Assembly: GCA_914767715.1 (NCBI GenBank)
Contig: OU612065.1
Span: 31,496,001-31,560,000 of the forward strand
Source of the DNA: Membranipora membranacea
Taxonomy: Eukaryota > Bryozoa > Gymnolaemata > Cheilostomatida > Membraniporidae
Length of the DNA: 64,000 bases
Direction: 5' to 3'
Below the pieces are notes generated by a model. That model saw only the letters and a list, made by a program, of their open reading frames with translations. It had not been told where the DNA came from and made no database searches. Both the position numbers and the translations under genes were made by a program. Shown in pieces: positions 3,811 through 32,921 of this stretch; positions within the stretch are counted from its first letter, which is position 1; the number at the start of each line of letters is the position of its first letter.

Positions 3811-3972
3811 CATCACATCTCTTGTAAACCTCGAGGAGCTGAGTATATCTGGTGTAGGCCTGCATAAATCAGGTATTGAGGGACTGCGTACCTTACCTAA
3901 GGGAATTGGTAACCTTAGGAGTCTCAAGAAATTAGTAATAACAGAATCATCACTCAAAGGTTTACCTAAAAG
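3811..3972 (+). CDS. LRR exon A1
   Basis: 162 nt, phase 2-2, bounded by TTCATTACAG and GTAGGT. It encodes 54 residues, or two leucine-rich repeats, beginning ITSLVNLEELSIS and ending SLKGLPKR. The L..L.I and LP..IG.L spacing is that of small (about 23-residue) LRRs. It is four codons longer than the other A-type exons because of extra residues between the first strand and the LRTLPKGIG segment. It is the first unit of the array. Confidence 0.85.
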
Positions 3973-5289
3973 GTAGGTAATGATCGTTTTGAGAATATTG
4001 CGTCATTTTGCCGATCATTCTTAGTACTGCTTTCAAAACAGAATAAGTTTAACCCAACTTACTAAAAACTGCACCGAATGCAGGCAACATTTTTTATAAT
4101 CTACCTGCCTTTCAGAAATGTCTAATTTAGTGACCATATAGTAATATTCATGAATGAGTATAAGCAATTTCTTACATGATGTGTTAATTAGAAGTTTAAG
4201 ATTACTCCACCTTCGGAAATATTTCAGTTCAGGCAATATTTTCAGTTTGAACTTCACTAACAGTTCTTCTTCTGATTATATTGCCGTCCTTTTTAATCAA
4301 CTTGATGCACATGTTCTGTGGTGCTGAAACTTGCGTCAAAAATTACGTAAATTTTTATTAGTTATGTTGTAGTCATAATTCCATATTTGATCTAGACCTG
4401 TGTGAGAAAGTATGAAATGAAGTTATGGGTATGAGGTGTTTCAAATTACGATCGAACATAGTCTGTTCAATAATAAGTACAGGAGAAAACAATTTCAAAT
4501 TCTAGCAGTGTCAATACCTGCTGAATGTTGATCTGGTACAAATATAATTACCGAAATGTTTCAACTCTTCCTAAAAATTCTTGTCATTTTTTTCTAATAA
4601 TAATCTTTCTTGCATAGCATAGCTTTCTGTACAGAATGCAAGCAACATTTTTTTTAGAATCTACCTGCCTTATGGAAATGTCAAATTTAGAAACGATATG
4701 CTAATATTCATGAATGAGTATAAGAGATTTCTCACATGATGCCCATTCAGGTGTTTGAGATTAGTTCACTATCAGAAAAATTGCAGTTCATGCAATATTT
4801 TTCTTTTGATGATGGTGCCCTCCTTTTTGATCAATTTGATGTACATGTCCTGGTTTGTGTCAAAAGTTTAGTTAGGCAGTACTCATTATAACATATAATA
4901 TACATATATGTGAGAAGGCAAAACAAAGCAAGATGTGTACAAGGTGAGGCGAAATATCATCAAACATTTTCTCTCCAATTATTAAAGCAAGAGCAAACAA
5001 TTCCTTTTAAACCAGGGTCATTTCAGACAGCAGGGAGGGTTAAAACCTGCTGGTTGTTAATTTGTTACAAAAGTCAACACCAAAGTGATTTAACTCACCC
5101 TCAACATTCTTTTTCTCTAATCTTATTAATCATCCCTGCATTTATTTATGTCAGCTCTGCCTGTTTGTGTGTTGATGTATCTAGCACAAACAAACACATA
5201 GTTTTAGCTACCTCTGCCAAAACTACAGGCTCACTCATGAAACATAAATTAGGTATCTAGAAATCAATATAATTATCTCCTCCTTACGC
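3973..5289 (+). repeat. A-type intron: two diverged copies of the same spacer
   Basis: The segment at about 4033-4520 recurs after each A exon (12841, 14242, 15651) and at 11441 and 23251. A second, older version with the same order of landmarks (ACAGAATGCAAGCAACA, TAATATTCATGAATGAG) lies at about 4630-4800, leading to a dead A exon at 5290. This shows that an A unit was duplicated early and one exon then died. Short minus-strand ORFs here are shared by all copies and carry no domain. Confidence 0.75.
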
Positions 5290-5379
5290 CATCACAACTT
5301 CATGGCCAGAATACCTTTCCGGAAGAAATTGGGAAACTTGCATGATACAATAATCATTTATCACATTGCTGCCTGAAAG
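5290..5379 (+). pseudogene. Dead LRR exon A', copy 1
   Basis: Remnant of an A-type LRR exon. GAAGAAATTGGGAAACTTG and TGCCTGAAAGGTAA match the middle and end of live A exons, but the middle has lost bases and the acceptor reads TTACGCC, without AG. The frame is broken. The same remnant occurs at 20238 and 24487, so the exon died before the block was duplicated. Confidence 0.7.
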
Positions 5380-6185
5380 GTAAACATGCATTATGTTTTA
5401 GGAATTACTGTGTTAATATTTCACGTTTATATTGTTATTAGAACCAATGTTTGCTGTAACAACTGGCAACAACATGCACATTCACTGTATGTCCATAGGG
5501 TCGAGTTGAGGGAATTTCAGAGCTGTGCGAACCAAGGGAACGCCTGACGGTTTGCTTGTACCCAAACTATATGCTGTTTAATTTAATATTTCGATATCTT
5601 GGGAATCATAAGATGATTCCAGCAAGAAAATGATTTCTGCACATTGTATATACTGCTGCAGTCCAGCTGAAATTTCCGTGTCTTTAATTTAACACAATCT
5701 TTGTCTTGAGGCCTTGTTGTAGTGTTAAAAACGCAAATTGTTGGCCTAGAAAACATAATATGGCATGGTAAAATGAAGCGTTATCAGCTAGATACGGGTT
5801 AAACTAAGGCTACCAAATATCTACAGAGCAGTTTATGATCAGCAATCAATTCATTAGAAAATATCCATACTTCATTTTGGGATTACAATCGAATTGATGC
5901 TCAGATGGATCTTTGATGGGGCCATAAATTATTAGGGGACGCATAATCCATGTGCATTTTTCTTGGTCAGCTTCTTTTTCAAAAAAATTTACATTCACTT
6001 TCATTGTTTCCGCAACATCTTGCTTTCACAACATTGTCTTGCCTTTGAGGGGGGATATCCCAACAAAAACTGTATTATCAGAGTACAGGTGGAGGTCACC
6101 AAATAGTACTCAAAGGTTCCAGGATTACAAGTTTGCTCTGGAATTCAGTGGTTATCAAACTTGCTTTATTTCCTTTCAATTACAG

Positions 6186-6326
6186 CATGCGTACACTCGT
6201 CAATTTGGAGGAACTGAGTATATCTTTCAGTGAGGAGCTGGAATCCTTACCTGACTGGATTGGAGAGCTCACAAGTCTCAAAATCCTCAATGCGTCAGGA
6301 TGCAGCCTAACTCACCTACCACACAG
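6186..6326 (+). CDS. LRR exon B1
   Basis: 141 nt, phase 2-2, between TTTCAATTACAG and GTATGTAATT. It encodes 47 residues, two LRRs: MRTLVNLEELSIS then LPDWIGELTSLKIL and a closing LTHLPHR. The methionine is internal, not a start. The acceptor has a conserved flank of about 150 bp that recurs before every B exon. Confidence 0.85.
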
Positions 6327-7025
6327 GTATGTAATTGTAGTATTTTGAGTATGCCTATTCTTAACAATGGTGAACATCATTACGCAAACTATGTGCTGCT
6401 TACCTCAATATCTCCATTTCTATTTTTATTGTATTTATGATTAAGATGTTTCCTGATGAAAAGTTAACTACACATCACATATGCAACACCAGTCCGACAG
6501 AAGTTGATGAGTCTCTGTTTTGTTAGAGCATACACAACGTTTGTCTTGATGGCTCCCTGCAGTGACAAAAACACAGATTACAAACCTAGAAAATTATTTA
6601 GGATGGTGAAAAGAAGCATAATCAGCTGGATTTTGGTTAAACTAAGGTTTACAAATAACTTCGGAGCAATTTGATCAGTAATATATTCATTAAAAAATAT
6701 CCAGACTTTATCTTGGGGATTACAACGAGAGTGATGCTCAAAACGGTCGTTGGACAAACCATAAACTGTCAAGAGATGCACAATCCGTGTGCATTTTTCT
6801 TGGTCAGCCTCTACTTAAAAGATTCTTACATTCACGTCCATTGTTTCCCAACATTTTGCTTACATAATATTGTACTGCCTTCAATGGGGGATATCAAAAT
6901 AAACATTGTACTACCAGGGTACAGGTGGAGGTACCCATAGTATAGTACTCAAATGTTCCAGGGATACATATTTGCTCTGACATTTAGTGGTCATCAAACT
7001 TGCATTATTTCCCTTTCAATTACAG

Positions 7026-7166
7026 CATGCGGACTCTCGTCAATTTGGAGGGACTGAGTATATCTTTCAGTGAGGAGCTGGAATCCTTACCTGACTGGAT
7101 TGGAGGGCTCATGAGTCTCAAAATCCTCGATGTATCCGGTTGCCGGCTAACTAGCCTACCTGACAG
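7026..7166 (+). CDS. LRR exon B2
   Basis: 141 nt, phase 2-2, intact splice sites. It encodes MRTLVNLEGLSIS with LPDWIGGLMSLKIL and ends RLTSLPDR. It differs from B1 mainly at predicted surface positions and in the closing PDR instead of PHR. Confidence 0.85.
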
Positions 7167-7671
7167 GTATGTAATTGTAATAATTTGAGTATGATTGTTC
7201 TTTACAATGGTTAAAAACGCAAATTGTTGGCCTAGAAAACATAATATGGCATGGTAAAATGAAGCGTTATCAGCTAGATACGGGTTAAACTAAGGCTACC
7301 AAATATCTACAGAGCAGTTTATGATCAGCAATCAATTCATTAGAAAATATCCATACTTCATTTTGGGATTACAATCGAATTGATGCTCAGATGGATCTTT
7401 GATGGGGCCATAAATTATTAGGGGACGCATAATCCATGTGCATTTTTCTTGGTCAGCTTCTTTTTCAAAAAAATTTACATTCACTTTCATTGTTTCCGCA
7501 ACATCTTGCTTTCACAACATTGTCTTGCCTTTGAGGGGGGATATCCCAACAAAAACTGTATTATCAGAGTACAGGTGGAGGTCACCAAATAGTACTCAAA
7601 GGTTCCAGGATTACAAGTTTGCTCTGGAATTCAGTGGTTATCAAACTTGCTTTATTTCCTTTCAATTACAG

Positions 7672-7812
7672 CATGCGTACACTCGTCAATTTGGAGGAAC
7701 TGAGTATATCTTTCAGTGAGGAGCTGGAATCCTTACCTGACTGGATTGGAGAGCTCACAAGTCTCAAAATCCTCAATGCGTCAGGATGCAGCCTAACTCA
7801 CCTACCACACAG
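7672..7812 (+). CDS. LRR exon B3 (same as B1)
   Basis: 141 nt, phase 2-2, identical in encoded sequence to B1 at 6186 because of the 1486-bp tandem duplication. Splice sites are intact. Confidence 0.85.
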
Positions 7813-8511
7813 GTATGTAATTGTAGTATTTTGAGTATGCCTATTCTTAACAATGGTGAACATCATTACGCAAACTATGTGCTGCTTACCTCAATATCTC
7901 CATTTCTATTTTTATTGTATTTATGATTAAGATGTTTCCTGATGAAAAGTTAACTACACATCACATATGCAACACCAGTCCGACAGAAGTTGATGAGTCT
8001 CTGTTTTGTTAGAGCATACACAACGTTTGTCTTGATGGCTCCCTGCAGTGACAAAAACACAGATTACAAACCTAGAAAATTATTTAGGATGGTGAAAAGA
8101 AGCATAATCAGCTGGATTTTGGTTAAACTAAGGTTTACAAATAACTTCGGAGCAATTTGATCAGTAATATATTCATTAAAAAATATCCAGACTTTATCTT
8201 GGGGATTACAACGAGAGTGATGCTCAAAACGGTCGTTGGACAAACCATAAACTGTCAAGAGATGCACAATCCGTGTGCATTTTTCTTGGTCAGCCTCTAC
8301 TTAAAAGATTCTTACATTCACGTCCATTGTTTCCCAACATTTTGCTTACATAATATTGTACTGCCTTCAATGGGGGATATCAAAATAAACATTGTACTAC
8401 CAGGGTACAGGTGGAGGTACCCATAGTATAGTACTCAAATGTTCCAGGAATACATATTTGCTCTGACATTTAGTGGTCATCAAACTTGCATTATTTCCCT
8501 TTCAATTACAG

Positions 8512-8652
8512 CATGCGGACTCTCGTCAATTTGGAGGGACTGAGTATATCTTTCAGTGAGGAGATGGAATGCTTACCTGACTGGATTGGAGGGCTCATGA
8601 GTCTCAAAATCCTCGATGTATCCGGTTGCCGGCTAACTAGCCTACCTGACAG
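8512..8652 (+). CDS. LRR exon B4 (near copy of B2)
   Basis: 141 nt, phase 2-2. It differs from B2 by Leu to Met and Ser to Cys in the loop after the first strand (EEMECLPDW). Both changes are non-synonymous, although the surrounding 1486-bp units are nearly identical. Confidence 0.85.
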
Positions 8653-9351
8653 GTATGTAATTGTAATAATTTGAGTATGATTGTTCTTTACAATGGTATA
8701 CATCATTACGCAAACTAGGTGCCGCGTACTTCAATATCTCCATTTCTATTTTTATTGTATTTATGATTAAGATGTTTCCTGGTGAAAAGTTGTCTACACA
8801 TCACATATGCAACACCAGTCCGACAGAAGTTGATGAGTCTCTGTTTTGTTAGAGCATACACACCGTTTGTCTTGATGGCTCCCTGCAGTGACAAAAACAC
8901 AGATTACAAACCTAGAAAATTATTTAGGATGGTGAAAAGAAGCATAATCAGCTGGATTTTGGTTAAACTAAGGTTTACAAATAACTTCGGAGCAATTTGA
9001 TCAGTAATATATTCATTAAAAAATATCCAGACTTTATCTTGGGGATTACAACGAGAGTGATGCTCAAAACGGTCGTTGGACAAACCATAAACTGTCAAGA
9101 GATGCACAATCCGTGTGCATTTTTCTTGGTCAGCCTCTACTTAAAAGATTCTTACATTCACGTCCATTGTTTCCCAACATTTTGCTTACATAATATTGTA
9201 CTGCCTTCAATGGGGGATATCAAAATAAACATTGTACTACCAGGGTACAGGTGGAGGTACCCATAGTATAGTACTCAAATGTTCCAGGAATACATATTTG
9301 CTCTGACATTTAGTGGTCATCAAACTTGCATTATTTCCCTTTCAATTACAG

Positions 9352-9492
9352 CATGCGGACTCTCGTCAATTTGGAGAGACTGAATATATCTTTCAGTGAG
9401 GAGCTGGAATCCTTACCTGACTGGATTGGAGAGCTCACTAATCTCAAATTCCTCAATTTGTATAATTGCCAGCCAACTAGCCTGCCTGACAG
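9352..9492 (+). CDS. LRR exon B5
   Basis: 141 nt, phase 2-2, lying 840 bp after B4 with a matching intron, so a further tandem step. It encodes LERLNIS and LPDWIGELTNLKFLNLYNC, ending QPTSLPDR; Pro replaces the usual Leu in the last LRR. It is followed by the tail sequence, not by another B unit. Confidence 0.85.
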
Positions 9493-10930
9493 GTATGTAA
9501 TTGTAGTATTTTGAGTCTGCCTTCTCTTTTGAATGATAATCTACAGGCAATCTAGGTGCTATTTACTTTGATATTTCGATTAATTGAGTATGATTAAAGA
9601 CTTCCTAAGGACCAAAGCAATAGATAGTCTGGCAGCTAGTTCTGCAATAGTTATGCAGTATTTTGACACTGAAAAAAATTGAAGCTCTTCAGGGTGAAAA
9701 TTATTTGTAGCTTTAGAAAATACCCCCTCTTTCATCAATTAGCCTCTGAGGTTCCAAAATCTAGTGGTGTTGTATATGCAATGTGCAGACAACTTTTTAT
9801 CTGTAATCATCTTGAAGACTACAGAAGGACCAAAGCAATATATAGTCCGGCAGCTAGGACTACACAATATTTAAAAACTGAAAAAATTCATAGCTCTTCC
9901 AAGTAAAATTATGCATACCTTTAATAATTGGCCCCTTTTTTGTCAATTACCCCTCTGAGGTTCCAAAATCTAGTGCTGTACCAGCCCAACATGCTACCAC
10001 TTGTATGTAATTTAGAGAACTGTAAAGGTTAATGGACTCAGTTATCTAAAGTTGTACAATGTTTCTGAAACTGAAAATATATTTATTTTTAATGTATGTG
10101 GAACTAATCAGTTATTAAATATATTAGGAAGTGGTAGCGTATTGCGCTGGTACAGCACTAGATTTTGAAACCTCTTAGGCGCAATTGAAGGATTATTGGA
10201 CAAAAGATGAACTATAAAGGGACCCATATTCCATGTACAATTCCCTACTAGCCAGCTTACACTTTCACTTCAAAGTTTCTTACATACACTGTCATTGTTG
10301 TTCCATTTTGTTGCTTATACAGAAATGTCTTCTCTCAATGATATATCAAATATTTGGGCAAAAATTGAATGCAGTTTTATTCAAATCTGAGGTGAAAAAT
10401 ATACATTCTAAACAACCATTTGTATACCATATGTAATAACTACAAGGATCATGTTACTTTGGTGTGAATGGCAGTGAAATGAAACTGTTAAGCTAGAGAT
10501 TACAGGAATAGCCTGAAGGCGGTAATCGAAGCTCTCGAATTCAAATATCACAGCAGTTGCCATGCAGTAAGATAAGGAAAAGAAGGCTGGTAAATAAGAG
10601 AATCATACCTACTACAACAAAATAATATGTCGTACGAATTGACCTCAAGAGTGGAGTGTGAGTTTGACCAATAAGAGGGTCAGTAAAATAAAGAAAGTTG
10701 AGCTAGAAATCACGTAAATCGGCTGAAGTGGGAAATCAGACCTCATGTGCCCTAATATGTCAGTTAACACATCAACAATAGAATAGATTTATAAAACCAA
10801 TAGCAACAGAGAATGTTATTACATCAAATCCAATATGAGAACACACCATCTCTTTTCTTTTCCTTTGAATATATTTATGTTTCTACGTCTTATCATCAAC
10901 ACATCATCAAGTCACGTTCGGTTCGCCAGA
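9493..10930 (+). repeat. Block tail, copy T1
   Basis: A noncoding segment found after the last B exon of each block (also 21291, 26300, 28742, 32922). It contains two diverged direct repeats (about 9600-9765 and 9810-9970, sharing GACCAAAGCAATA and CCTCTGAGGTTCCAAAATCT), an inverted relative of the second at about 10130-10170, and near 10230-10370 a diverged copy of the flank that precedes B exons but with no exon after it. Nothing coding is supported. Confidence 0.75.
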
Positions 10931-11440
10931 GTTGTGGTATGCGAGGCGGTCTGGCTCGCATCATTTTCTTGACGATTATCTTCGTTCCGCCCTGGTCTCG
11001 TCATCTTCATCCGCAGGGAGATAGGGCCTACAATAAATGGGCTCAGAATCAGTGTGGTACCTCTTCACCCTAGACTTGTTTCTTATCACTTGTCTGCCCT
11101 GAAGAGATTCTACTGTAACTTAATTACCACTGGAATCAATCACAGGTATAGGGTTTTCATTGAAAGTGCTTTGCATTTTTGTGGGACTGTCTCTTTGCAC
11201 AATTCCCAGCGAATTCATAAAGTCCTCAAACTCGGCACTTATAAACTGCGGACCATTATCAAATTTGAGTGTGGTGGGTATTCCATATCTGAAGAATGTT
11301 TTGGCCTGTCCTTCTGATGTTTGGGATGCGGTTGTGGAGCTCATGATAGAATAATCATAAAAGCGTGAATAATAATCTACCATTACCATCACATACTCAT
11401 TAGTTGGCTGTATGGGACTCTGAACGTCTACACTAAAATC
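10931..11440 (-). mobile_element. Ty3/gypsy fragment G1 (deleted pol 3' end)
   Basis: The minus strand encodes a piece of integrase core (VDYYSRF, then FDNGPQF) fused directly to the pol C-terminus (VQRDSPTKM). About 320 bp present in the fuller copy at 35050-35370 are missing, with CAATT shared at the deletion point. Its left end abuts the block tail. Its right end joins an A-type intron at a shared AAATC. Stops and the deletion make it inactive. G2 at 22691 has the same two junctions. Confidence 0.8.
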
Positions 11441-11833: not shown

Positions 11834-11993
11834 AATTTTTCATTGCATCTTCATTTTTCTTGAATTTTACGCAAAAGAATGCCAAAAAACACCTCAAAAG
11901 TCCCTAAAAAGACCTCAAAAGTCCCTAAAAATAGCTGTTTGTTGGCATTCTTTTGTGTTAAATTCAAGAAAAATGAAGACGCAATGAAAAATT
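11834..11993 (+). repeat. Foldback element, copy 1 (160 nt)
   Basis: A near-perfect inverted repeat with arms of about 50 bp; the left arm starts AATTTTTCATTGC and the right arm ends GCAATGAAAAATT. The loop carries two direct copies of CCTCAAAAGTCCCTAAAAA-like sequence. It lies within an intron of the LRR gene. Confidence 0.85.
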
Positions 11994-12630: not shown

Positions 12631-12780
12631 CATCACATCTCTTGTAAAACTCCAGGAGCTGAGTATATCTGGTTCAATACATTCTGAGGGCCTGCGTTCC
12701 TTACCTGAGGGAATTGGGAAACTTGAGCATCTCAAGAAAGTAGTGATAACAAACTCATCTCTCGAAGAGTTACCTGAAAG
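12631..12780 (+). CDS. LRR exon A2
   Basis: 150 nt, phase 2-2, between TTCATTACAG and GTAGGT. Two LRRs: ITSLVKLQELSISGS, then LRSLPEGIGKLEHLKKVVIT and a closing LEELPER. Frame and splice sites are intact. Confidence 0.85.
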
Positions 12781-14036: not shown

Positions 14037-14186
14037 CATCACATCTCTTGTACACCTTGAGGAGCTGAGGATATCTGCTGAATCACGTTCTGGCGGCCTG
14101 CGTACCTTACCTAAGGGAATTGGTAACCTTAGGAGTCTCAAGAAATTAGTAATAACAAACTCATCTCTCAAAGAGTTACCTGAAAG
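14037..14186 (+). CDS. LRR exon A3
   Basis: 150 nt, phase 2-2, after TTTATTACAG. It encodes ITSLVHLEELRISAES, then LRTLPKGIGNLRSLKKLVIT and LKELPER. The second half resembles A1 more than A2 or A4, which suggests exchange between units. Confidence 0.85.
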
Positions 14187-15440: not shown

Positions 15441-15590
15441 CATCACATCTCTTGTAAAACTCCAGGAGCTGAGTATAATTGGTTCAAGATATTCTGAGGG
15501 CCCGCGTTCCTTACCTGAGGGAATTGGGAAACTTGAGCATCTCAAGAAAGTAGTGATAATAAACACATATCTCAATAAGTTACCTGAAAG
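15441..15590 (+). CDS. LRR exon A4
   Basis: 150 nt, phase 2-2. It encodes ITSLVKLQELSIIGSRYSEG, then LPEGIGKLEHLKKVVII and LNKLPER. It differs from A2 at a cluster of predicted strand-surface positions. Splice sites are intact. Confidence 0.85.
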
Positions 15591-16389: not shown

Positions 16390-19225
16390 TTATAATTGGA
16401 ACAAAAGATATTTGAATACGCCAGATTTAAATGATGTTAATTTGCTCAGTGAGCGTATTGACAAAGAAAGATTATTAAAAGATGAAGCAATTGCAATGTT
16501 TAGTTTATCATTAGGAGGTAAAATAAGAAAATTATCGCGCTTGGGGTATCTTCGATTTCTAGAAAGAAAAAGATCATTAATATAGCTAGGTGTGATGTTA
16601 TACATTATTCTGTAGGCATAGAGAGAACTAAAATATATAAGAAGACTAGGAAGTGGCAATATTTTTAAAGTACGACATAAGAAAAACGTATTTGATAATT
16701 GAACTGGATTGTAATGAATATTTGCAATAATTCTTAGCGCAGCTTTCTGATAAACATAAAGTGAATCTAGCTGATATTTTGGACTGATATTCAAGAAAAA
16801 TTGTATTCCATTTATGATATGGCAATATATGAATTGAAAGTAAAACTGTCTGGCTGATTGTGTGGTCAAAAATGTTCTGCATAATTGTAACAAATTGGTA
16901 TTTTTTTGTATTTTAGTTTTTATATATTCAATATGATTATGAAAATGACATCGAATCACTAAATGTAAATCTGAGTAGTTTAGTGGTAGATTATCGTAAC
17001 AGGGTGGTATTTGAGAATTTTAAATCAAATTTATGTTTTGCATTGCCAAAACAAGGTAATGGGATTTTTTTATATTTATGGTCATCCGATTATTATAGCA
17101 CCATTCTTGGATGACACCCAAGTCACCCCTACAATGTTGCTCCAGAGACTGTGGATCTTTCTGATGGCATATAATTACAGTATCGCATACGCATAAGCAG
17201 TTGAGGACAGGGGTAAATTTAACATATCATTTATGAACACAAGAAATAACGTTGGAGCTAAAATTGAACCCTGTGGGACACCTATGTTAATTGGTTTTTT
17301 TTCTGAAGCAATTTGATTATAAAATACATATTGTTGCCGGTCATCAAGAAATGATTTTATCAGCTTCAATGAGGGACCAATTATTTTATAGGAAGCAAGT
17401 TTATTAAACAAGATATCATGGTTTACACAGTCGAAAGCCTTACAGAAGTCCAAGAACATTCCTATAACACACCTATTTTTTTGCTTTTGCCGGAGCACAT
17501 CTGACACCACTTTATGTACAGCATCAGAGCAAGAGTAATTACTTCTGAATCCTGATTGAAGAGGGTGAATAGCTTTTATGTCAGTCAGGAAAGTCATTAA
17601 ACATTTATTTATATGTTTTTCAAAAATCTTTGACAATATAGGTAGAATCGATATAGGTCTGTAATTTCATGGATCATTCGGATCTCCACCCTTAAAAACA
17701 GGGGTTACTCTAGCTGTCTTCCAACATTTGGGGAAATCACCCTCAATAAGAATCTGATTGAAGATGTCGGTCAATATATTAACGACAAAAGGGAGCGTCT
17801 TTTTAAGCATCATAACTGAGATACCATCAGGACCAGTCGATTTCTTATCAGAAAAAGATTTGAGATATAGGCAAATTGATGCAGGAGTAAAACTTTTAAA
17901 GCTAGACAAGAATTTTTCCTGAGAGTTTGTAGGTAGTATATTATCTCTGATTTCAGGGGTATTTTTTGAAATATTTTCCTTTCTAAACCCATGACCTAGT
18001 ATATCAGCGATTGTTGAGAAATGATTGTTCAGGTCTTTGCTGGTAAGAGTTGAAGAAGAACTAGAAGACTTTTTCTTTGTCTTTCCGATGTTGAGGGCGT
18101 CCCAAATTGGTTTTGTATTATTATTTGCTGAGTTTTTAACCAAACCAGAAAAATACGTCTTCTTTTTTTTGTTTATAAGATTTGTAACTAAATTTCTCTG
18201 CTTTTTGTAATCATCCCAGTTTTGAGAGTGTTTTAGTGAATCCCTTATTTTCATTTGTCTAGAGACTTCAATATCAAGCCATGGTGGTAAAACTTCTGTC
18301 TTTACAAAACGAACTTTCCTCCTAACATTTAGACTAATTTTCTCCAAAAACAACTGGTTGAAACTTTCTATCATCTCACTAGATGACCTGAGATATCGAA
18401 TGATATCCCAATTAACGTCTGAAAAAGATCTGCGTAAATTTTCTGGGGTCATTCTAGAAAAGTCATTGAAGCTTATTTAGAGTTTTTTTACACTTGGGAC
18501 AACACCTATTTTTCTTATGCTATATGTGAGATAGTGATCACTTACAGCTGTTTTTAATACTGAGGTATGTCGTAAGTTACAATCCTTATTTGTGTAAATA
18601 TGATCAAGCAGGCTAGATGAATTTTCGCTGACACGTGTTGGCTCATTCACCATTTGTTTGAAAGAGAATCTGGAGAAAATTGGTAGCCATTTTTTCTTTC
18701 TGCTATTTTCCAAGAGATTTACATTAAAGTCACCAAGAATGATGACTTCTTCTGTGTGCTCGGTGCAACAATCTAGGTAAAGTCTCAAAGAGTCATTCCA
18801 AGAAATTAACGAGTTCGGAGATATAAATGAAGGAAATTAAGAAAGCATGAGATGCTTTATGGCGAATTTCGATGGTAATAGATTCATCAATTATGTGATT
18901 GAAATCATTGATTAATTCATATTGAATACCCTGCTTTATTATACCACCTCCAGGTCGAGGTTTCCTGTCTCTTCTTAACATATCATATGATGGAATTTGA
19001 TAAAAAAGGATCTGGTTTGTTTCCATCCAGAAAAGTCTAGCTTAAACCGAAGATTGAAAAATTGTAAGTAGACAATATGTGACTCACTTCATCAATTTTT
19101 GAAGTGATTCCACAAATATTCAAATGGGCAAAAGAAAAACGATTTTTGATCACTTTTAAAGTGTCAGAATTAGGTTGAGAAAAATTTGTATTGAAAGGTT
19201 GGCCTGTTGTTTGGAGCTTACTCAT
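16390..19225 (-). pseudogene. LINE ORF2: endonuclease and reverse transcriptase, broken
   Basis: Read leftward: endonuclease N-terminus (FAHLNICGI), a DRKPRPGGGI block, ILGDFNVNLL and SDHYLTY; then linker and reverse transcriptase with KSTGPDGIS, QSGFR, LDFCKAFDCVNH and GVPQGSILAPTLF. The expected catalytic YADD block reads YAYA just before a stop. A C-terminal region follows from 16959 to 16390. The pieces lie in different frames separated by stops, so no active enzyme is expected. Confidence 0.9.
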
Positions 19226-20237: not shown

Positions 20238-20338
20238 CATCACATCTGTTGTAAAACTTCATGGCCTGAATACCTTTCCGGAAGAAATTGGGAAACTTGC
20301 ATGATACAATGATCATTTATCACAGTGCTGCCTGAAAG
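20238..20338 (+). pseudogene. Dead LRR exon A', copy 2
   Basis: CATCACATCTGTTGTAAAAC and the ending TGCCTGAAAG match live A exons, but the acceptor reads TTACAC instead of TTACAG and the frame is broken by deletions. Confidence 0.75.
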
Positions 20339-21149: not shown

Positions 21150-21290
21150 CATGCGTACACTCGTCAATTTGGAGGAACTGAAAATATCTGTCAGTGAGGA
21201 GCTGAAATCCTTACCGGACTGGATTGGAGAGCTCACAAGTCTCAAAATCCTCCAGGTGTCAGGATCTAGCCTAACTCACCTACCACACAG
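21150..21290 (+). CDS. LRR exon B6
   Basis: 141 nt, phase 2-2, between TTTCAATTACAG and GTATGTAATT. It encodes LEELKISVSEELKSLPDW and LKILQVSGSSLTHLPHR. Compared with B1, the changes fall around the two strand motifs. Confidence 0.85.
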
Positions 21291-22690
21291 GTATGTAATT
21301 GTAGTATTTTGAGTCTGCCTTCTCTTTTGAATGATAATCTACAGGCAATCTAGGTGCTATTTACTTTGATATTTCGATTAATTGAGTATGATTAAAGACT
21401 TCCTAAGGACCAAAGCAATAGATAGTCTGGCAGCTAGTTCTGCAATAGTTATGCAATATTTTGACTCTGAAAAAATTATGAAGCTTTTCAGGGTGAAAAT
21501 TATTTGTAGCTTTAGAAAATACCCCCTCTTTCATCAATTAAGCCTCTGAGGTTCCAAAATCTAGTGGTGTTGTATATGCAATGTGCAGACAACTTTTTAT
21601 CTGGAAACATGTTGAAGACTACAGAAGAACCATAGCAGTATATGGTCCGGCAGCTAGGACTACACAGAAGTTATGCAATATTTAAAAACTGAAAAAAATT
21701 GATAGCTCGTCAAAGTAAAAATAATGCGTTCCTTTAATAATTGCCCCCCCCCCCCCCTGTTTTCGTCAATTACCCCTCTGAGGTATGTAATTAAGAGAAC
21801 TGTAAAGGTTAATGGACTCAGTTATCTAAAGTTGTACAGTGTTCCTGAAACTGAAAATATATTTATTTTTAACGTATGTGGAACTAATCAGTTATTAAAT
21901 ATACTTGGAAGTGGTAGCGTATTGCGCTGGTACAGCACTAGATTTTGAAACCTCATAGGCGCAATTGAAGGATTATTGGTCAAAAGATGAACTATTAAGG
22001 GACCCATATTCCATGTACAATTCCCTACTAGCCAGCTTACACTTTCACTTCAAAGTTTCTTACATTCACTGTCATTGTTGTTCCATTTTGTTGCTTATAC
22101 AGAAATGTCTTCTCTCAATGATATAACAAATATTTGGGCAAAAATTGAATGCAGTTTTATTCAAATCTGAGGTGAAAAATATACATTCTAAACAACCATT
22201 TGTATACCATATGTAATAACCTACTACAATGATCATGTTACTTTGGTGTGAATGGCAGTGAAATGAAACTGTTAAGCTAGAGATTACAGGAATAGCCTGA
22301 AGGCGGTAATCGAAGCTCTCGAATTCAAATATCACAGCATTGCCATATTGATGGAATAGCAGCAAGATAAGGAAAGAAGGCTGGTAAATAAGAGAATCAT
22401 ACCTACTATAACAAAATAATATGTCATGCGAATCGACCAAAAGAGTAGAGTGCGAGTTTGACCAATAAGAGGGTCAGTAAAATAAAGAAAGTTGAGCTAG
22501 ATACCCAAATCGGCTGAAGTGGGAAATCAGACCTCATGTGCCCTACTATGTCAGTAAACACATCAACAATAGAATAGATTTATAAAACGAATAACAATGG
22601 AGAATGTTATTACATCAAATCCAATATGAGAACACACCATATGTTTCTACATCTTACCATCAACACATCATCAAGTCACGTTTGGTTTGT
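21291..22690 (+). repeat. Block tail, copy T2
   Basis: Same order of segments as T1, with a long C tract near 21745. No coding signal. The minus-strand frame at 22072-22440 shows no family features. Confidence 0.75.
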
Positions 22691-23250
22691 CAGGGTTGTG
22701 GTATGCGAGGCGGTCTGGCTCGCATCTTTTTCTTGACGGTTATCATTGTTCCACCCTGGTCTCGTCATCTTCATCCGCAGAGAGATAGGGCCTACAATAA
22801 ATGGGCTCAGAATCAGTGTGGTACCTCTTCACCCTAGACCTCTTCACTTGTCTGCACTGAAGAGATTCTACTTTAACTTAACTACATAGACTTAATATGC
22901 TAGTATATGCTAGTATATTAAGTCTATGCTTAACTACCACTGGAATCAATCACGGTTATAGGGTTTACATTGAAAGTGCTTTGCATTTTTGTGGGACTGT
23001 CTCTTTGCACGATTCCCAGCGAAGTCATAAAGTCCTCAAACTCGGCACTTAAAAACTGCGGACCATTATCAGATTTGAGTGTGGTGGGTATTTCATATCT
23101 GAAGGATGTTTTGGCCAGTTCTTCTGATGTTTGGGATGAGGTTGTGGAGCTCATGATAGAATAATCATAAAAGCGTGAATAATAATCTACCATTACCATC
23201 ACATACTCATTAGTTGGCTGTATGGGACTCTGAACGTCTACACTAAAATC
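22691..23250 (-). mobile_element. Ty3/gypsy fragment G2
   Basis: Same internal deletion (integrase core joined to the pol C-terminus) and same AAATC junction to an A-type intron as G1. It also carries a small palindromic insertion at 22885. Inactive. Confidence 0.8.
22885..22928 (+). mobile_element. 44-bp palindromic insertion with 8-bp target duplication
   Basis: G1 lacks this segment. Here a near-perfect palindrome (CATAGACTTAATATGCTAG and its complement with one mismatch) is flanked by CTTAACTA at 22877-22884 and 22929-22936. An 8-bp duplication is typical of hAT-type transposition, but the insert is far too short for a normal element. Confidence 0.8.
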
Positions 23251-24486: not shown

Positions 24487-24587
24487 CATCACATCTGTTG
24501 TAAAACTTCATGGCCAGAATACCTTTTCGGAAGAAATTGGGAAACTTGCATGATACAATGATCATTTATCACAGTGCTGCCTGAAAG
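24487..24587 (+). pseudogene. Dead LRR exon A', copy 3
   Basis: Same remnant as at 20238, with the same acceptor loss (TTACAC). No live A exon precedes it in this block; the block starts within the A-type intron after the gypsy junction at 23250. Confidence 0.75.
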
Positions 24588-25392: not shown

Positions 25393-25533
25393 CATGCGTA
25401 CACTCGTCAATTTGGAGGAACTGATACTATCTGTAAGTAAGAAGCTGAAATCCTTACCTGACTGGATTGAAGAGCTCACAACTCTCAAAATCCTCCATGT
25501 AGATAGTTGCCGGCTAACTAGCCTGCCTGACAG
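25393..25533 (+). CDS. LRR exon B7
   Basis: 141 nt, phase 2-2. It encodes LEELILSVSKKLKSLPDW and LKILHVDSCRLTSLPDR. A strong donor-like GTAAGTAAG lies inside the exon at 25433. If used, it would leave a 40-nt exon and shift the frame. Confidence 0.83.
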
Positions 25534-26161: not shown

Positions 26162-26299
26162 CATGCGTAAACTCGTCAATTTGGAGAAACTGATAATATC
26201 TGACAGCAAGCTGCAATCCTTACCTGACTGGATTGGAGAGCTCACTAATCTCAAAATCCTCCATGTGTCAATTTGCATGCTAACTGGCCTGCCTGACAG
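26162..26299 (+). CDS. LRR exon B8
   Basis: 138 nt, one codon shorter than the other B exons, still phase 2-2. It encodes MRKLVNLEKLIISDSKLQSL and LKILHVSICMLTGLPDR. The missing codon lies in the loop after the first strand. The acceptor flank is the most diverged of the set (TTATATTACAG). Confidence 0.85.
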
Positions 26300-27756
26300 G
26301 TATGTTATTGTAGTATTTTGAATCTGCCTTCTCTTTTGAATGATAATATACAGGCAATCTAGGTGCTATTTACTTTGATATTTCAATTAATTGAGTATGA
26401 TTAAAGACTTCCTAAGGACCAAAGCAATGGGTAGTCTGGCAGCTAGTTCTGCAATAGTTATGCAATATTTTGACACTGAAAAAAATTGAAGCTCTTCAGG
26501 GTGAAAGTTATTTGTAGCTTTAGAAAATACCCCCTCCTTCATCAATTAAGCCTCTGAGGTTCCAAAATCTAGTTGTGTTGTGTATGCAATGTGCAGACAA
26601 GTTTTATCTGGAAACATCTTGAAGACTACAGAAGGACCAAAGCAATATATAGTCCGGCAGCTAGGACTACACAGAAGTTATGCAATATTTAAAAACTGAA
26701 GAAATTCTTAGCTCATCCAAGTAAAACTATGCGTACCTTTGATAATTGCCCCCTTTTTTGTCAATTACCCCTCTGAGGCTCAAAAATCTAATGCTGTACC
26801 AGCCCAACATGCTACCACTTGTATGTTATTTAGAGAACTGTAAAGGTTAGTGGACTCAGTTATCTAAAGGTGTACGATGTTCCTGAAACTGATAATATAT
26901 TTATTTTTATCTCATGTGGAACTAATCAGTTAATAAATAAATTTGGAAGTGGTAGCGTATTGCGCTGGTACAGTACTAGATTTTCAAACCTCATAGGCGC
27001 AATTGAAGGATTATTGGTCAAAAGATGAACTATTAAGGGACCCATATTCCATGCACAATTCCCTACTAGCCAGCTTGCACTTTCACTTCAAAGTTTCTTA
27101 CATTCACTGTCATTGTTGTTCCATTTTGTTGCTTATACAGAAATGTCTTCTCTCAATGATATATCAAATATTTGGGCAAAAATTGAATGCAGTTTTATTC
27201 CAATCTGATGTGAAATATATACATTCTAAACAACCATTCGTTTACCATATGTAGTAACCTACTACAAGGGTCATGTCACTTTGGTGTGAATGGCAGTGAA
27301 ATGAAACTGTTGAGCTAGAGATTACAGGAATAGCCTGAAGGCGGTAATCGAAGCTCCCGAATTCAAATATCACAGCAGTTACCATGTTGATGGAATAACA
27401 GCAAGATAAGGAAAAGAAGGCTGGTAAATTCGTTAATCATATGTACTATAACAAAATAACATGTCGTACGAAATGACCCAAAGAGTGGAGTGTGAGTTTG
27501 ACCAATAAGAGGGGCTCAGTAAAATAAAGAAAGTGGAGCTAAAAATCACCTAAATCGGCTGAAGTGGGAAATCAGACCTCATGTGCTCTAATATGTCAGT
27601 AAACACATCAACAATAGAATAGATTTATAAAACGTATAACAACGGAGAATGATATTCCATCAAATCCAATATGAGTACACACCATCTTTTTTCTTCTCCA
27701 ATTTGTTTGTTTCTACGTCTTATCATCAACGCATCATCAAGTCACGTTGGGTTCTC
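26300..27756 (+). repeat. Block tail, copy T3
   Basis: Third copy of the noncoding segment described at 9493, with the same direct and inverted internal repeats. Confidence 0.75.
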
Positions 27757-27999
27757 CAGGGTTGTGGTATGCAAGGCGGTCTGGCTCGCATCATTTTCTT
27801 GACGATTATCTTCGTTCCGCCCTGGTCTGGTCATCTTCATCCGCAGGAAGATAGGGCCTACAATAAATGGGCTCAGAGTCAGTGTGATACCTCTTCACCC
27901 TAGACTTGTTTCTTATCACTTGTCTGCCCTGAAGAGATTCTACTGTAACTTAACTACCACTGGACTCTATCACGGTTATAGGGTTTTCATTGAAAGTGC
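27757..27999 (-). mobile_element. Ty3/gypsy fragment G3, very short
   Basis: Only the far pol 3' end survives. It stops at TTGAAAGTGC and continues directly into B-type intron (TTACTTCAATATCTCC). G4 has the identical joint near 30833. Confidence 0.7.
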
Positions 28000-28600
28000 T
28001 TACTTCAATATCTCCATTTAATTTTTTTTTATGTGATTAAGACGTTTCCTGATGAAAATTATACAATACCAGTCCCATCTAAGTTGATGAGTCTCTGTTT
28101 TGTTAGAGCTTACACAACGTGTGGCTTGATGGTTCCCTGCGTTAACAAAAACACAGATTACAAACCTAGAAAATATTTAGGATGGTGAAAAGAAGCATAA
28201 TCAGCTGGATTTTGGTTTAATTAAGGTTTACAAATAACTTCGGAGCAATTTGATCAGTAATATATTCATTAGAAAATATCCAGACTTTATCTTGGGGATT
28301 ACAACGAGAGTGATGCTCAAAACGGTCGTTGGACAAACCATAAACTGTCAAGAGATGCACAATCCGTGTGCATTTTTCTTGGCCAGCCTCTACTTAAAAG
28401 ATTCTTACATTCACCTCCATTGTTTCCCAAAATTTTGCTTACGTAATATTGTACTGCCTTCAATGGGGGATATCAAAATAAATATTGTACTACCAGGGTA
28501 CAGGTGGAAGTCACCAAATAGTACTCAAATGTTCCAGGATTACAAGTTTGCTCTGGAATTCAGTGGTTATCAAACTTGCTTTATTCCCTTTCAATTACAG

Positions 28601-28741
28601 CATGTGTACACTCGTCAATTTGGAGAAACTGAATATATCTTACTGTAAGATGCTGCAATCCTTACCTGACTGGATTGGAGAGCTCACAAGTCTCAAAATC
28701 CTCTATCTGTCAGGAAGCAGCCTAACTCACCTACCACACAG
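28601..28741 (+). CDS. LRR exon B9
   Basis: 141 nt, phase 2-2. It encodes MCTLVNLEKLNISYCKMLQSLPD and LKILYLSGSSLTHLPHR. It contains a donor-like GTAAG within the first LRR. Confidence 0.85.
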
Positions 28742-30162
28742 GTATGTAATTGTAGTATTTTGAGTCTGCCTTCTCTTTTGAATGATAATATACAGGCAAT
28801 CTAGGTGCTATTTACTTTGATATTTCGATTAATTGAGTATGATTAAAGACTTCCTAAGGACCAAAGCAATAGATAGTCTGGCAGCTAGTTCTGCAATAGT
28901 TATGCAATATTTTGACACTGAAAAAATTATGAAGCTCTTCAGGGTGAGAATTGTTTGTAGCTTTAGAAAATACCCCCTCTTTCATCAATTAAGTTTCTGA
29001 GGTTCCAAAATCTAGTGGTGTTGTATATGCAATGTGCGGACAAGTTTTTATCTGGAAACATCATGAAGACTACAGAAGGACCAAAGCAATATATAGTCTG
29101 GCAGCTAGGACTACACAGTAGTTATGCAATATTTAAAAGCTGAAAAAATTCATAGCTCTTCCAAGTAAAATTATGCGCTCCTTTGATAATTGCCCCCTTT
29201 TTCGTCAATTACCCCTCTGAGGTATGTAATTTAGAGGACTGTAAAGGTTAATGGACTCAGTTATCTAAAGTTGTACAGTGTTCCTGAAACTGAAAATATA
29301 TTTATTTTTAACGTATGTGGAACTAATCAGTTATTAAATATATTTGGAAGTGGTAGCATACTGCGCTGGTACAGCACTAGATTTTGAAACCTCATAGGCG
29401 CAATTGAAGGATTATTGGTCAAAAGATGAACTATTAAGGGACCCATATTCCATGTACAATTCCCTACTAGCCAGCTTACACTTTCACTTCAAAGTTTCTT
29501 ACATTCACTGTAATTATTGTTCCATTTTGTTGCTTATACAGAAATGTCTTCTCTCAATGATATATCAAATATTTGGGCAAAAATTGAATGCAGTTTTATT
29601 CCAATCTGATGTGAAATATATACATTCTAAACAACCATTCGTTTACCATATGTAGTAACCTACTACAAGGGTCATGTCACTTTGGTGTGAATGGCAGTGA
29701 AATGAAACTGTTGAGCTAGAGATTACAGGAATAGCCTGAAGGCGGTAATCGAAGCTCCCGAATTCAAATATCACAGCAGTTACCATGTTGATGGAATAAC
29801 AGCAAGATAAGGAAAAGAAGGCTGGTAAATTCGTTAATCATATGTACTATAACAAAATAATATGTCATGCGAATCGACCCAAAGAGTAGAGTGCGACTTT
29901 GACCAATAAGAGGGGGTCAGGAAAATAAAGAAAGGTGAGCTAGAAATCACCTAAATCGGCTGAAGTTGAAATCAGACCTCATGTGCCCTAATATGTCAGT
30001 AAACACATCAACAATAGAATAGATTTATAAAACGAATAACAACGAAGAATGTTATTACATCAAATCCAATATAAGAACACACCATCTTTTTTCTTCTCCT
30101 TTGAATATATTTATGTTTCTTCGTTTCATCTTCAATACGTCATCATTATGTCAAGTTTGGTT
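28742..30162 (+). repeat. Block tail, copy T4
   Basis: Fourth copy of the noncoding block tail. It runs into the target duplication of the hAT-like element. Confidence 0.75.
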
Positions 30163-30170
30163 CTCCAGGG

Positions 30171-30587
30171 CAGGGGCGTATATTCTAAAAATTTTCACTC
30201 ACTGACTTTTTAGAGATGACCATACTGATCGGGCGCAGCCCGATCCACATACCGTAGGCGTGGCGGGGAGGGTGTGGGAGGGGCGCTTAAGCGCCCCTCC
30301 CACCACGGAAATTTTTACATATCGGTAGCAAAGTAGTGCAAGCAGAGAGGTATTTCATTAGCTCACTGAGCTGTTGAGTACTTTCAGAAAACAACTCAAT
30401 AGCAGTAAAAGATTACGGTAAAAATTCTCCAGTTATAAAGCACCCATTTGAAAAAAATCAGACCTTGTTGGGATTCGAACCCACAACATTCTTAATAAAC
30501 AGTGATCATTAGGCACACGCTCTACACACTGAGCTATTCAGCCATTCACAGATATCTGTGGTCCGTGATTGGTAATATACGCCACTG
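30171..30587. mobile_element. hAT-like nonautonomous element, copy 1 (417 bp), with tRNA-like module
   Basis: Terminal inverted repeats CAGGGGCGTATATT / CAGTGGCGTATATT and an 8-bp target duplication CTCCAGGG (30163-30170, 30588-30595). The relative at 27751 has the single, uninterrupted site. Inside are a hairpin GATCGGGC..GCCCGATC (30227-30245), a perfect 26-nt GC-rich palindrome (30276-30301) centred on CTTAAG, and a minus-strand tRNA-like segment. There is no transposase. Confidence 0.85.
30461..30545 (-). other. tRNA-derived segment with A and B boxes
   Basis: On the minus strand, TAGCTCAGTGTG (A box and D arm, stem GCTC/GAGC) is followed about 45 nt later by GGTTCGAATCC (B box and T loop, TGGG/CCCA stem). 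The acceptor stem does not pair and the anticodon arm is poor, so this is an RNA polymerase III promoter remnant of SINE type and not a tRNA gene. Confidence 0.65.
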
Positions 30588-30590
30588 CTC

Positions 30591-32520
30591 CAGGGTTGTG
30601 GTATGCGAGGCGGTCTGGCTCGCATCATTTTCTTGACGATTATCATTGTTCCGCCCTGGTCTCGTCATCTTCATCCGCAGAGAGATAGGGCTTACAATAA
30701 ATGGGCTCAGAATCACTGTGGTACGTCTTCACCCTAGACTTGTTTCTTATCACTTGTCTGCCCTGAAGAGATTCTACTGTAACTTAACTACCACTGGACT
30801 CAATCACGGTTATAAGGTTTTCATTGAAAGTGCTTACTTCAATATCTCCATTTAATTTTTTTTGTATGTGATTAAGATGTTTCCTGACGAAAAGTTGTCT
30901 ACATATTACATATGCAACACCAGTCCTACAGAAGTTGATGAGTCTCTGTTTTGTTAGAGCTCACACATTGTTTGACTTGTTTTTTGTCACTTGTCTGCCC
31001 TCAAGAATTTCTACTGTAACTTTACTACCAATGGAATCGACCATGGTCATAGGGTTTTTATTGAAAGTGCTTTGCATTTTTGTGGGACTGTCTCTTTGCA
31101 CAATTACAATATTGCCTACATTTACCCAGATGGTTAGGCTTGATTCTTTCCATCAAAGGCAGATTTCATTTTGGACTTTTGTTATCACGATCTCGAACAC
31201 ATATATCATCTTTAACCAAGCCCCGTACATCGGCAGTTAATGTTTCATGTCTCTGCCAAACAAAAGATCTGATGGAGTTTTCAAGGTAGCTGGGTGTGGT
31301 ATGATTTGATAGGCCATGACATAATTGGCTAATTCAGATTTCCAATTGAGGTTGACATTTTCAACCTGCCAACTAAAGACCTATTCTGCACTTCAACTTC
31401 TCCATTTGCCTGGGGCCATCTATAGAGGGTCACCTAATAATGATCAATTCCCAGCAAAGTCAGATAGTCCTTAAACACGGCACTTGTAAACAGTGGGCCA
31501 TTATCAGATTTGAGTGTGGTACGTATTCCATATCTGAAGAATATATTGGCCAGTACTTCTGATGTTTGGGGTGCGGTTGTGGAGCTCAGGATAGAATAAT
31601 CAACAAAGCGTGAATAATAATCTACCATTACCATCACATACTCATTAGTTGGCTGTATGGGACTCAGAAAGTCTACACTAAAATCTGCCCATGGTTTCTT
31701 GGGCAGGTGCGTTACGCTCAGCGGCTCTGTAATTTGACACTGGTGACATTTATTTTCACTTTATGCTCAATGTCTCTGTTTACACCAGGCCAATAAACCT
31801 TAGTCCTAGCCCTAGGCGTAGTTCCTACTATCCCAGGATTCCCCTCATGGGCCAAATCTATAACTCGCTGTCTCAATGATTTTGGAATCATGATCCTATT
31901 TCCCTTAATATAATATAGCCTAACACACAAGTTCTGTGGCATTCCATCTGTCTCTACATCAGTCAGTGACCTACTGGGGTATGCTAATCACCTGATATTC
32001 CCCACTTTGGACCTGGACCAGAACCGCCTAATCCTACATTTGATGCATCACTGGTAACCATAGTCCCATTAACTACATCATAATAACCCAGGGTATGGGT
32101 GGTACATAGTGCTTGTTTTAGACTTTCAAATGCCTTCCTCTCATTCTGACTAAAATGGAATTGATCTCTGGCTTCTCCACGAATAAGTTTCCTGAGTGGT
32201 TCACATGTGTCAAATAGTAATCTGCGATGAATTTTGAGACATACTGAGTCAGCCCTAAGAAACTGCAATTTTCAGCTTGAGATGTTGGTTCACAGGCATT
32301 TTGCACAGCCTTCACATGCTTCTGCAATAGGCCTATCCCATTAACAGTTGGTTTGTGTCCTCTAATTCCAATTCTGGGACTTTGAATTTGCACTTAGCTT
32401 GGTTTAGGGCTTAATAAGTCTCTCTAAAACCTGATCAATGATTTTGCCATGTTCCTCAGTAGTATTGGCATATACAATAACATCATCTGACATATTAGCC
32501 ACACCTTGGATACCTTGGAT
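30591..32520 (-). mobile_element. Ty3/gypsy remnant G4, mosaic
   Basis: Minus-strand pieces of pol: C-terminus (30596-30830), integrase core (about 31434-31637), the zinc-binding HEGN..VYWPGVNRD region (31718-31942), RNase H (31984-32268) and part of the reverse transcriptase connection (32118-32393). A piece of B-type LRR intron (about 30834-30977) sits in the middle. The right end breaks in reverse transcriptase and joins the flank of B10. Stops occur throughout. Confidence 0.85.
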
Positions 32521-32780
32521 AAATTATTAGGCGACGCAAAATCCATGTGCATTTTTCTTGGTCAGCTTCTTTTTCAAAAAAATTTACATTCACTTTCATT
32601 GTTTCCGCAACATCTTGCTTTCACAACATTGTCTTGCCTTTGAGGGGGGATATCACAACAAAAAGTGTATTATCAGAGTACAGGTGGAGGTCACCAAATA
32701 GTACTCAAAGGTTACAGTATTACAAGTTTGCTTTGGAATTCAGTGGTTATCAAACTTGCTTTATTCCCTTTCAATTACAG

Positions 32781-32921
32781 CATGCGTACACTCGTCAATT
32801 TGGAGGAACTGAATATGTCTTACAGTAAGATGCTGCAATCCTTACCTGACTGGATTGGAGAGCTCACAACTCTCAAAATCCTCAATGTGTCATATAGCAA
32901 GCTAACTAGCCTGCCTGACAG
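32781..32921 (+). CDS. LRR exon B10, last of the array
   Basis: 141 nt, phase 2-2. It encodes LEELNMSYSKMLQSLPDW and LKILNVSYSKLTSLPDR. It contains an internal AGTAAG. The next exon in phase is the Roc-COR exon at 38531, 5.6 kb away, so the intervening block tail, hAT-like element and gypsy remnant are all intronic. Confidence 0.85.

Follow-up and report, generated by a model that had tools for sequence, protein, structure and literature searches.

Fourteen phase-symmetrical leucine-rich repeat exons ahead of a predicted Roc-COR-caspase body in the bryozoan Membranipora membranacea

The closest described counterparts of the gene considered here are the LRR-ROCO genes of brown algae. In Ectocarpus and Saccharina these genes carry tandem phase-2 leucine-rich repeat (LRR) exons before one Roc-COR body, and their exons are reported to be shuffled (PMC11378527). 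The cited portion of that article also describes several splice variants whose LRR sets differ, as well as diversifying selection at concave LRR positions (PMC11378527). A further study of brown-algal LRR-ROCO genes, Zambounis 2012, is cited both there and in PMC4104024. Another example of a dispensable repeat exon is found in human NLRP3, in which a symmetrical LRR exon is reported to be skipped (PMC6642158). Here we describe a comparable exon array in an animal gene, located in a 64-kb stretch of genomic DNA from the bryozoan Membranipora membranacea (assembly GCA_914767715.1, contig OU612065.1, forward-strand positions 31,496,001 to 31,560,000), hereafter the window. The analysis covers this one locus in one genome; positions are window coordinates, and all features of the gene lie on the plus strand. 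The gene is predicted to encode an intracellular LRR-Roc-COR-caspase sensor, and we consider it probable that its LRR exons have been duplicated, recombined and diversified by selection, mainly in the germ line. This reading is built on the anatomy of the gene, its open frame, its duplication history, its recombinant flanks and a divergence restricted to exons, all of them observed in the DNA.

The array occupies positions 3811-32921 and comprises 14 open LRR exons, four of type A and ten of type B, each of which encodes two LRRs. The original prediction of 14 phase 2-2 exons with intact GT-AG sites, 150-162 nt long in type A and 138-141 nt in type B, held for every exon. Within the types, A1 is the longest A exon and the other three are of equal length, while nine of the ten B exons share one length and only B8 (26162) is shorter. 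All 14 lengths are divisible by three, with the layout C, codons, AG. The borders read TTACAG upstream and GTA(T/G)GT downstream throughout (14/14). When phases are computed through the full gene model, every array exon is entered and left in phase 2, as are the exit of exon E3 and the entry of the Roc-COR exon, so that skipping even all 14 exons keeps the frame. The prediction that any subset of exons would be in frame is thus borne out by the array and by both of its bordering exons. The exon ends show that a codon formed at a join encodes either Asn or Ser, so that no array join can create a stop codon. Any subset also preserves the LRR register, because every exon encodes two LRRs and its borders always cut the repeats at one position. 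The peptides call for a correction: 13 rather than 14 are distinct, B1 (6186) and B3 (7672) being identical. The A and B exons match each other by nhmmer (best 4.9e-7), and all array exons probably descend, on this sequence evidence, from a single exon; the 14 phase agreements are therefore not claimed as independent.

Outside the array, the spliced model (X1, X2, E3, the 14 LRR exons, the Roc-COR exon and C1-C8) runs through 2091 codons with only a terminal stop. No gene start was found within the window, and the start probably lies to its left. In the joined protein, Pfam LRR_14 scores 2.6e-78. Pfam Roc (PF08477) reaches 27.6 bits against a cut-off of 27 in the open frame of the exon and 26 bits, slightly under, in the joined protein. 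By sequence, the closest PDB entry to the Roc-COR exon is a Chlorobium Roco protein (6e-5). An AlphaFold model of this exon (pLDDT, the predicted local distance difference score, 84; pTM, the predicted template modelling score, 0.84) finds its best fold matches in Chlorobium LRR-Roc-COR, LRRK1, LRRK2 and an isolated COR (3dpt), and fits Roc-COR tandems across both domains. The alignment behind the model holds 19 sequences, that of the window and 18 relatives (16 of them anonymous), and Roc residues G79, G84, K85, T86 and S87 are invariant in all 19. Despite the modest sequence scores, the match to Chlorobium Roco taken with these fold matches makes the predicted assignment of the body to ROCO firm. 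The C-terminal part scores 116.9 bits (1.4e-33) for Peptidase_C14 (PF00656; cut-off 21.4), and its best solved relatives by sequence are caspase-9 (3e-15), caspase-1 and CED-3. It is predicted to be a metazoan-type caspase with both an SHG and a QACAG motif, which we take to be the His and Cys motifs, respectively. No NACHT domain was present among the 12 Pfam families retrieved up to E=1 from the joined protein from E3 on, nor in X1. Named relatives of the body are bryozoan, at 30-35% identity, and anonymous ones reach 58%; a longer query spanning LRRs, body and caspase gave six matches, all anonymous. The presence of introns, the metazoan type of the caspase and the bryozoan relatives together mark the window as animal DNA. 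Searches for related DNA gave 10 pattern matches in viral_contigs and 37 in genome_contigs, none of which was confirmed.

The exons of the array diverge in a manner that sets them apart from their surroundings. The contrast between exon and intron serves as an internal neutral yardstick. In neutral duplicates, exon divergence should not exceed that of introns. Exons A2, A3 and A4 sit in 1.4-kb units (A1 is without their upstream flank) and were compared with 600 bases of upstream and 440 of downstream flank. Their exons differ pairwise by 7-21%, their 1-kb flanks by about 2%. For A2/A3, 24 of 150 exon sites differ against 22 of 1034 flank sites (p=4e-11); for A2/A4, 11 of 150 against 17 of 1038, or 1.6% (p=3e-4); and for A3/A4, 32 of 150 against 23 of 1032 (p=1.5e-16). 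With longer flanks, which run beyond the duplicated unit, A2/A4 gave p=0.87 and the other two pairs 9e-11 and 2e-5. The 11 base changes of the A2/A4 pair fall in nine codons and all 11 alter an amino acid, an excess of amino-acid-changing differences over the flanks with p=2e-5, the chance of no silent change in 11 being 0.046. At these nine codons the A4 version occurs in no other A exon. Under a codon model, omega (the ratio of amino-acid-changing to silent substitution rates) is 2.93 in the A exons (p=0.012 against omega=1), the null kappa in the omega tests being the best of seven values, and simple counting gives proportions of 0.192 for amino-acid-changing (pN) and 0.090 for silent (pS) differences. 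The sequence comparisons make a strong case that diversifying selection has acted on the A exons.

For the B exons the case for diversifying selection is moderate and again comes from sequence comparison. Four of the 45 B pairs have both 150-base flanks in common, with less than 10% divergence; three of these show more divergence in the exon than in the flank (p=0.0016, 8e-7 and 3e-7), and the fourth is the identical pair. In 60-base windows, B6 and B9 differ by 0% just upstream of the exon, by 17% and 12% within it and by 0-2% over the next 180 bases. Variability is higher at eight LRR positions (3.5 against 1.74 residue types, p=0.0009; p=0.005 against other non-core sites), although these positions were mapped, by spacing to the positively selected brown-algal ROCO LRR sites, after the variability was known and hence not blind. 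An earlier definition with 10 concave positions gave p=0.016 against all other sites and 0.07 against other exposed sites. Two duplications of non-LRR exons in the same gene serve as controls. In the X1/X2 pair, the exon is the more conserved part (13 of 438 sites, 3.0%, against 63 of 802 elsewhere, 7.9%; p=5e-4), and in the caspase copies the exon differs at 9 of 609 sites (1.5%) against 68 of 2468 elsewhere (2.8%; p=0.08). Neither shows an exon excess, whereas the LRR exons show the opposite pattern.

The flanks of the B exons record recombination. They fall into two upstream classes (U1, U2) and two downstream classes (D1, D2), and all four combinations occur, which implies recombination between the left and right sides of an exon. 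The exon at 7026 has a U2 flank, and its right flank is cut short where the two duplicated copies meet at 7210. The upstream flank of the exon at 28601 is mosaic in its own right: the last 60-120 bases resemble U1 and the more distant ones U2. Unequal crossing-over between misaligned cassettes, with the exon as the common anchor, would explain this mixing, and it would both create and lose cassette copies. The array thus holds very recent and older tandem duplications alongside recombinant units, which in this one genome supports the earlier suggestion that it is suited to copy-number change.

Several results weigh against the reading of selected diversification in an LRR-Roc-COR-caspase sensor. 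In the B exons omega is 1.42 and omega=1 is not rejected (p=0.18), and over all 45 pairs pN (0.147) is slightly lower than pS (0.161). In the A exons, the mapped concave sites are not enriched in variable codons (5/8 against 19/41, p=0.46). By itself, the caspase-copy control is not significant, and the omega tests assume a single tree, which recombination breaks. In several pairs, divergence at silent exon sites is likewise higher than in the flanks, and some of the difference between exons would therefore be older than the flanks or brought in by conversion. On the side of the protein, Pfam COR-A scores 17.4 bits, under the cut-off of 35.3, so that the COR call rests on the structure match, and the putative function is read from domains only. 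The raised silent sites, which occur in many pairs, the lack of a pN excess across all B pairs and the clearly recombined flank classes would also fit exons that are simply older than their flanks, the latter having been homogenised by conversion or replaced by recombination without any diversifying selection. We regard this account as improbable. Homogenising tracts that end at both exon edges would themselves need selection for different exons; the A2/A4 exons carry 11 changes and no silent one within flanks only 1.6% divergent; and neither of the gene's duplications outside the LRR exons shows an exon excess.

Duplication has also left debris in the locus. Three additional, decayed A-like copies, which the original prediction had missed, lie at about 5292, 20243 and 24492. 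All three have lost the acceptor AG (they read TTACRCC) that is kept in 14/14 intact exons, and each contains the same in-frame TGA, which tblastn displayed in one. A 1486-bp tandem duplication with three mismatches encloses exons B1 to B4; two of the mismatches lie within the B2/B4 exon, each causing an amino-acid change. Larger blocks, which contain cassettes, introns and remnants of retroelements, recur with 66-98% identity. Positions 1-2698 form a tandem duplication at 93.3% that doubles the N-terminal phase 1-1 exon X, a second symmetrical cassette in the gene, and the block at 42077-47078 recurs at 51303-56297. The whole region is prone to tandem duplication, the downstream 42-63 kb being repeated too, so what distinguishes the LRR exons is their divergence pattern and not duplication. 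The downstream repeat qualifies the claim of a single effector body, which is nearly right. It stands for working bodies, because the second caspase 3' half at 51303-53055 is truncated, beginning inside the active-site exon, and its copy of C7 carries 32 extra bases, a number not divisible by three.

The decayed copies, the transposon remnants in the introns and the truncated caspase copy could together suggest an array that is dying and without function, and the 99.8% tandem duplication could be an assembly error. Such an explanation is very improbable. All 14 exons are open with intact sites even though exons of the same type differ from each other at as many as 28% of amino-acid-changing sites. 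Their length differences are multiples of three (141/138 and 162/150), 8 of 12 core positions are fixed in the B exons, and the frame is intact through Roc, COR and caspase.

Mobile elements accompany the repeated blocks. A decayed retroelement at 35376-36212 on the minus strand, which we judge to be Ty3/gypsy-like, has integrase core, H2C2 and RNase H domains. Pieces of it are repeated at about 10858-11418, 22622-23228, 27688 and 30522-32515; they lie downstream of B exons, with which they were apparently duplicated. The A4-B6 intron holds a reverse transcriptase remnant at 17175-17663 on the minus strand (RVT_1, 1.3e-25; LINE-like in our judgement), beside which the open frames 16390-17019 and 17667-18476 have no Pfam match. 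Within the duplicated downstream block, the minus-strand stretches 44771-45163 and 54341-54793 are open over 130 and 150 amino acids and have no Pfam match at 0.001. An exon pair resembling PUS1 (pseudouridylate synthase 1; PDB match 3e-9) is present in three tandem partial copies (48791-48895 with 49442-49534, 58732-58836 with 59381-59473, and 60739-60843 with 61393-61485), and the second exon has a stop in two of the three.

Combinatorial alternative splicing, in which any subset of the 14 exons could be joined to give up to thousands of LRR sensors on one caspase body, is rather unlikely in our estimate. It would be compatible with the survival of frame and LRR register in any subset, and it has precedents in the splice variants reported for brown-algal ROCO genes (PMC11378527) and in the LRR exon skipping reported for NLRP3 (PMC6642158). 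However, only a symmetrical internal exon can survive tandem duplication. Duplication alone therefore accounts for the frame symmetry, which is then no evidence for alternative splicing. Judged by eye, exons of one type have similar splice sites that lie close to consensus, which is what constitutive exons would show. Selection on each copy is equally expected if all exons are used together. A transcript search with the spliced A2-B10 array (384 amino acids) found none of this gene among the best 120 of 1601 matches; no identity among these exceeds 48%, which excludes them as its transcripts, and at least six carry a listed Roc domain. By analogy with the brown-algal ROCO and NLRP3 precedents, some isoform diversity is nevertheless likely.

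Mutually exclusive choice of one array exon, as in Dscam, is highly improbable, even though the locus does combine similar tandem exons with one invariant body. Docking was assessed by k-mer complementarity between exon flanks and the E3 intron together with the final 1.5 kb of the intron that precedes the Roc-COR exon. The best of 16 tests was an 11-mer at 3065 in the E3 intron whose complement lies in the acceptor region in 9 of the 14 exons, a count reached by 2 of 100 shuffles and not significant after correction for 16 tests. The 11-mer (CTGTAATTGAA, 3065-3075) complements the acceptor sequence of nine of the ten B exons and offers a weak lead on splicing control. Its complement is the common B acceptor sequence, which is missing from the four A exons and one B exon. 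Moreover, the choice of a single exon would leave only some 4-5 LRRs. Somatic DNA rearrangement of cassettes, known from lamprey VLR and proposed for brown algae, is suggested by the cassette layout only and is almost certainly not the mechanism here: the sequenced gene is complete and every intact cassette has splice sites. According to the brown-algal article, those algae likewise have no reported cases of rearranged ROCO loci (PMC11378527).

In the reading that we prefer, a germ-line diversified sensor, the LRR solenoid would consist of 28 array repeats plus one pair on the Roc-COR exon if all exons are used. It would have grown through rounds of tandem duplication and unequal recombination from a symmetrical exon that encodes two LRRs, the exons being diversified by selection for new LRR surfaces. 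Most transcripts would carry most exons in series, exon skipping may add isoforms, and diversity would lie mainly between alleles and individuals. Binding of a ligand to the LRR surface would alter the nucleotide and dimer state of the Roc-COR GTPase. Initiator caspases are activated by proximity, and the change in the Roc-COR dimer would bring two caspase domains together and allow proteolysis, with cell death in defence or self/non-self recognition as the probable outcome. Purified Roco proteins are reported to form dimers mainly via COR, and a nucleotide-linked monomer-dimer cycle has been proposed for them (PMC6337361). A bolder proposal, which we hold only tentatively and consider unlikely, is a single-gene repertoire in which 14 interchangeable, selected two-LRR cassettes are combined by splicing and allelic copy number onto one Roc-COR-caspase body. 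If it were true, recognition and execution would reside in one polypeptide.

Table 1. Features of the locus in window coordinates; for flank classes, the B exons concerned are given by their first position.
Feature	Position	Strand	Remarks
N-terminal exon X1	399-836	+	phase 1-1, Pro/Gln/Ser-rich, open frame, GT-AG; no Pfam match
N-terminal exon X2	1853-2290	+	phase 1-1, tandem duplicate of X1
Exon E3	2765-2993	+	phase 1-2, joins N-terminal part to LRR array; no Pfam match
LRR exon A1	3811-3972	+	162 nt, phase 2-2
Decayed A-type copy	5292-5379	+	without acceptor AG
Tandem duplication, 1486 bp	5724-8695 (5724-7209 / 7210-8695)	+	3 mismatches
LRR exon B1	6186-6326	+	141 nt, phase 2-2
LRR exon B2	7026-7166	+	141 nt, phase 2-2
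LRR exon B3	7672-7812	+	141 nt, same sequence as B1
LRR exon B4	8512-8652	+	141 nt, phase 2-2
LRR exon B5	9352-9492	+	141 nt, phase 2-2
LRR exon A2	12631-12780	+	150 nt, phase 2-2
LRR exon A3	14037-14186	+	150 nt, phase 2-2
LRR exon A4	15441-15590	+	150 nt, phase 2-2
Decayed A-type copy	20243-20338	+	in-frame stop, without acceptor AG
LRR exon B6	21150-21290	+	141 nt, phase 2-2
Decayed A-type copy	24492-24587	+	without acceptor AG
LRR exon B7	25393-25533	+	141 nt, phase 2-2
LRR exon B8	26162-26299	+	138 nt, phase 2-2
LRR exon B9	28601-28741	+	141 nt, phase 2-2
LRR exon B10	32781-32921	+	141 nt, phase 2-2
Roc-COR exon	38531-40461	+	last LRR pair, Roc GTPase (P-loop GESMAGKTS) and COR
Linker exon C1	40752-40829	+	gene model
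Linker exon C2	41130-41281	+	gene model
Caspase exon C3	41478-41639	+	gene model, Pfam
Caspase exon C4	41855-42095	+	holds SHG and QACAG motifs
Caspase exon C5	42342-42512	+	gene model, Pfam
Caspase exon C6	42846-42955	+	gene model, Pfam
Caspase exon C7	43170-43404	+	gene model, Pfam
Final coding exon C8	43694-43767	+	carries stop codon
Partial second caspase 3' half	51303-53055	+	copy begins within active-site exon; C7 copy with 32 additional bases
Flank class U1D1	exons 6186, 7672, 25393		
Flank class U1D2	exons 21150, 32781		
Flank class U2D1	exon 8512		
Flank class U2D2	exons 9352, 26162, 28601		

Dscam exon clusters and lamprey VLR cassettes had been offered as models for this array. In arthropod Dscam clusters, similar tandem exons precede a constant body and one exon is chosen per cluster; the features shared with the present locus are the tandem exons and the constant body. 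Lamprey VLR cassettes have no splice sites and are copied into an incomplete germ-line gene in somatic cells. The present locus shares LRR cassettes with that system, but here they are ordinary GT-AG exons (14/14) of a gene with an intact frame. The closer precedents are instead the brown-algal arrays of phase-2 LRR exons and, in addition, NLRP3. In the NLRs, the caspase is recruited and not fused. Human NLR genes such as NLRP3 resemble this gene in having skippable symmetrical LRR exons (PMC6642158) and a sensor placed upstream of a caspase, and differ in using NACHT where Roc-COR is found here.

A similar order of parts is found in a bacterial conflict system and in a sea-anemone gene. Bacterial conflict proteins with LRRs, an AP-GTPase and COR, followed by a variable effector, have a Roc-COR-type switch and an exchangeable C-terminal effector, and their LRRs are called rapidly evolving (PMC8195603). 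The sea-anemone protein NG1 (LRR, Ras/Roc, weak COR, TIR_2) likewise has this order and an exchangeable effector (PMC5094078). Both have other effectors, and exon cassettes are not described in the cited portions of either article (PMC8195603; PMC5094078). The MFHAS1-like proteins P0041 and P0045 of the bryozoan Watersipora subatra unite LRR, Roc, COR and caspase in one protein; both are listed with a caspase domain, confirmed here for P0045. Each has 31% identity in the body and few LRRs in its listed model. In the literature searched, consisting mainly of titles and openings of abstracts outside subscription papers, no description of an animal LRR-Roc-COR-caspase protein was found.

Brown-algal LRR-ROCO genes are reported to encode one LRR per 72-bp exon, against two per 138-162-nt exon here; alternative transcripts are reported for them and the cited portion of the article mentions no caspase, whereas the present gene is an animal one with a caspase in cis (PMC11378527). 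The exon-cassette LRR-ROCO layout is already known from brown algae, and what is new is its animal version with a caspase in cis. A design that we found described for brown algae only is now seen in an animal gene which carries its predicted executioner in the same polypeptide. The comparison bears on whether invertebrates diversify cell-death receptors by cassettes within one gene rather than by large gene families.

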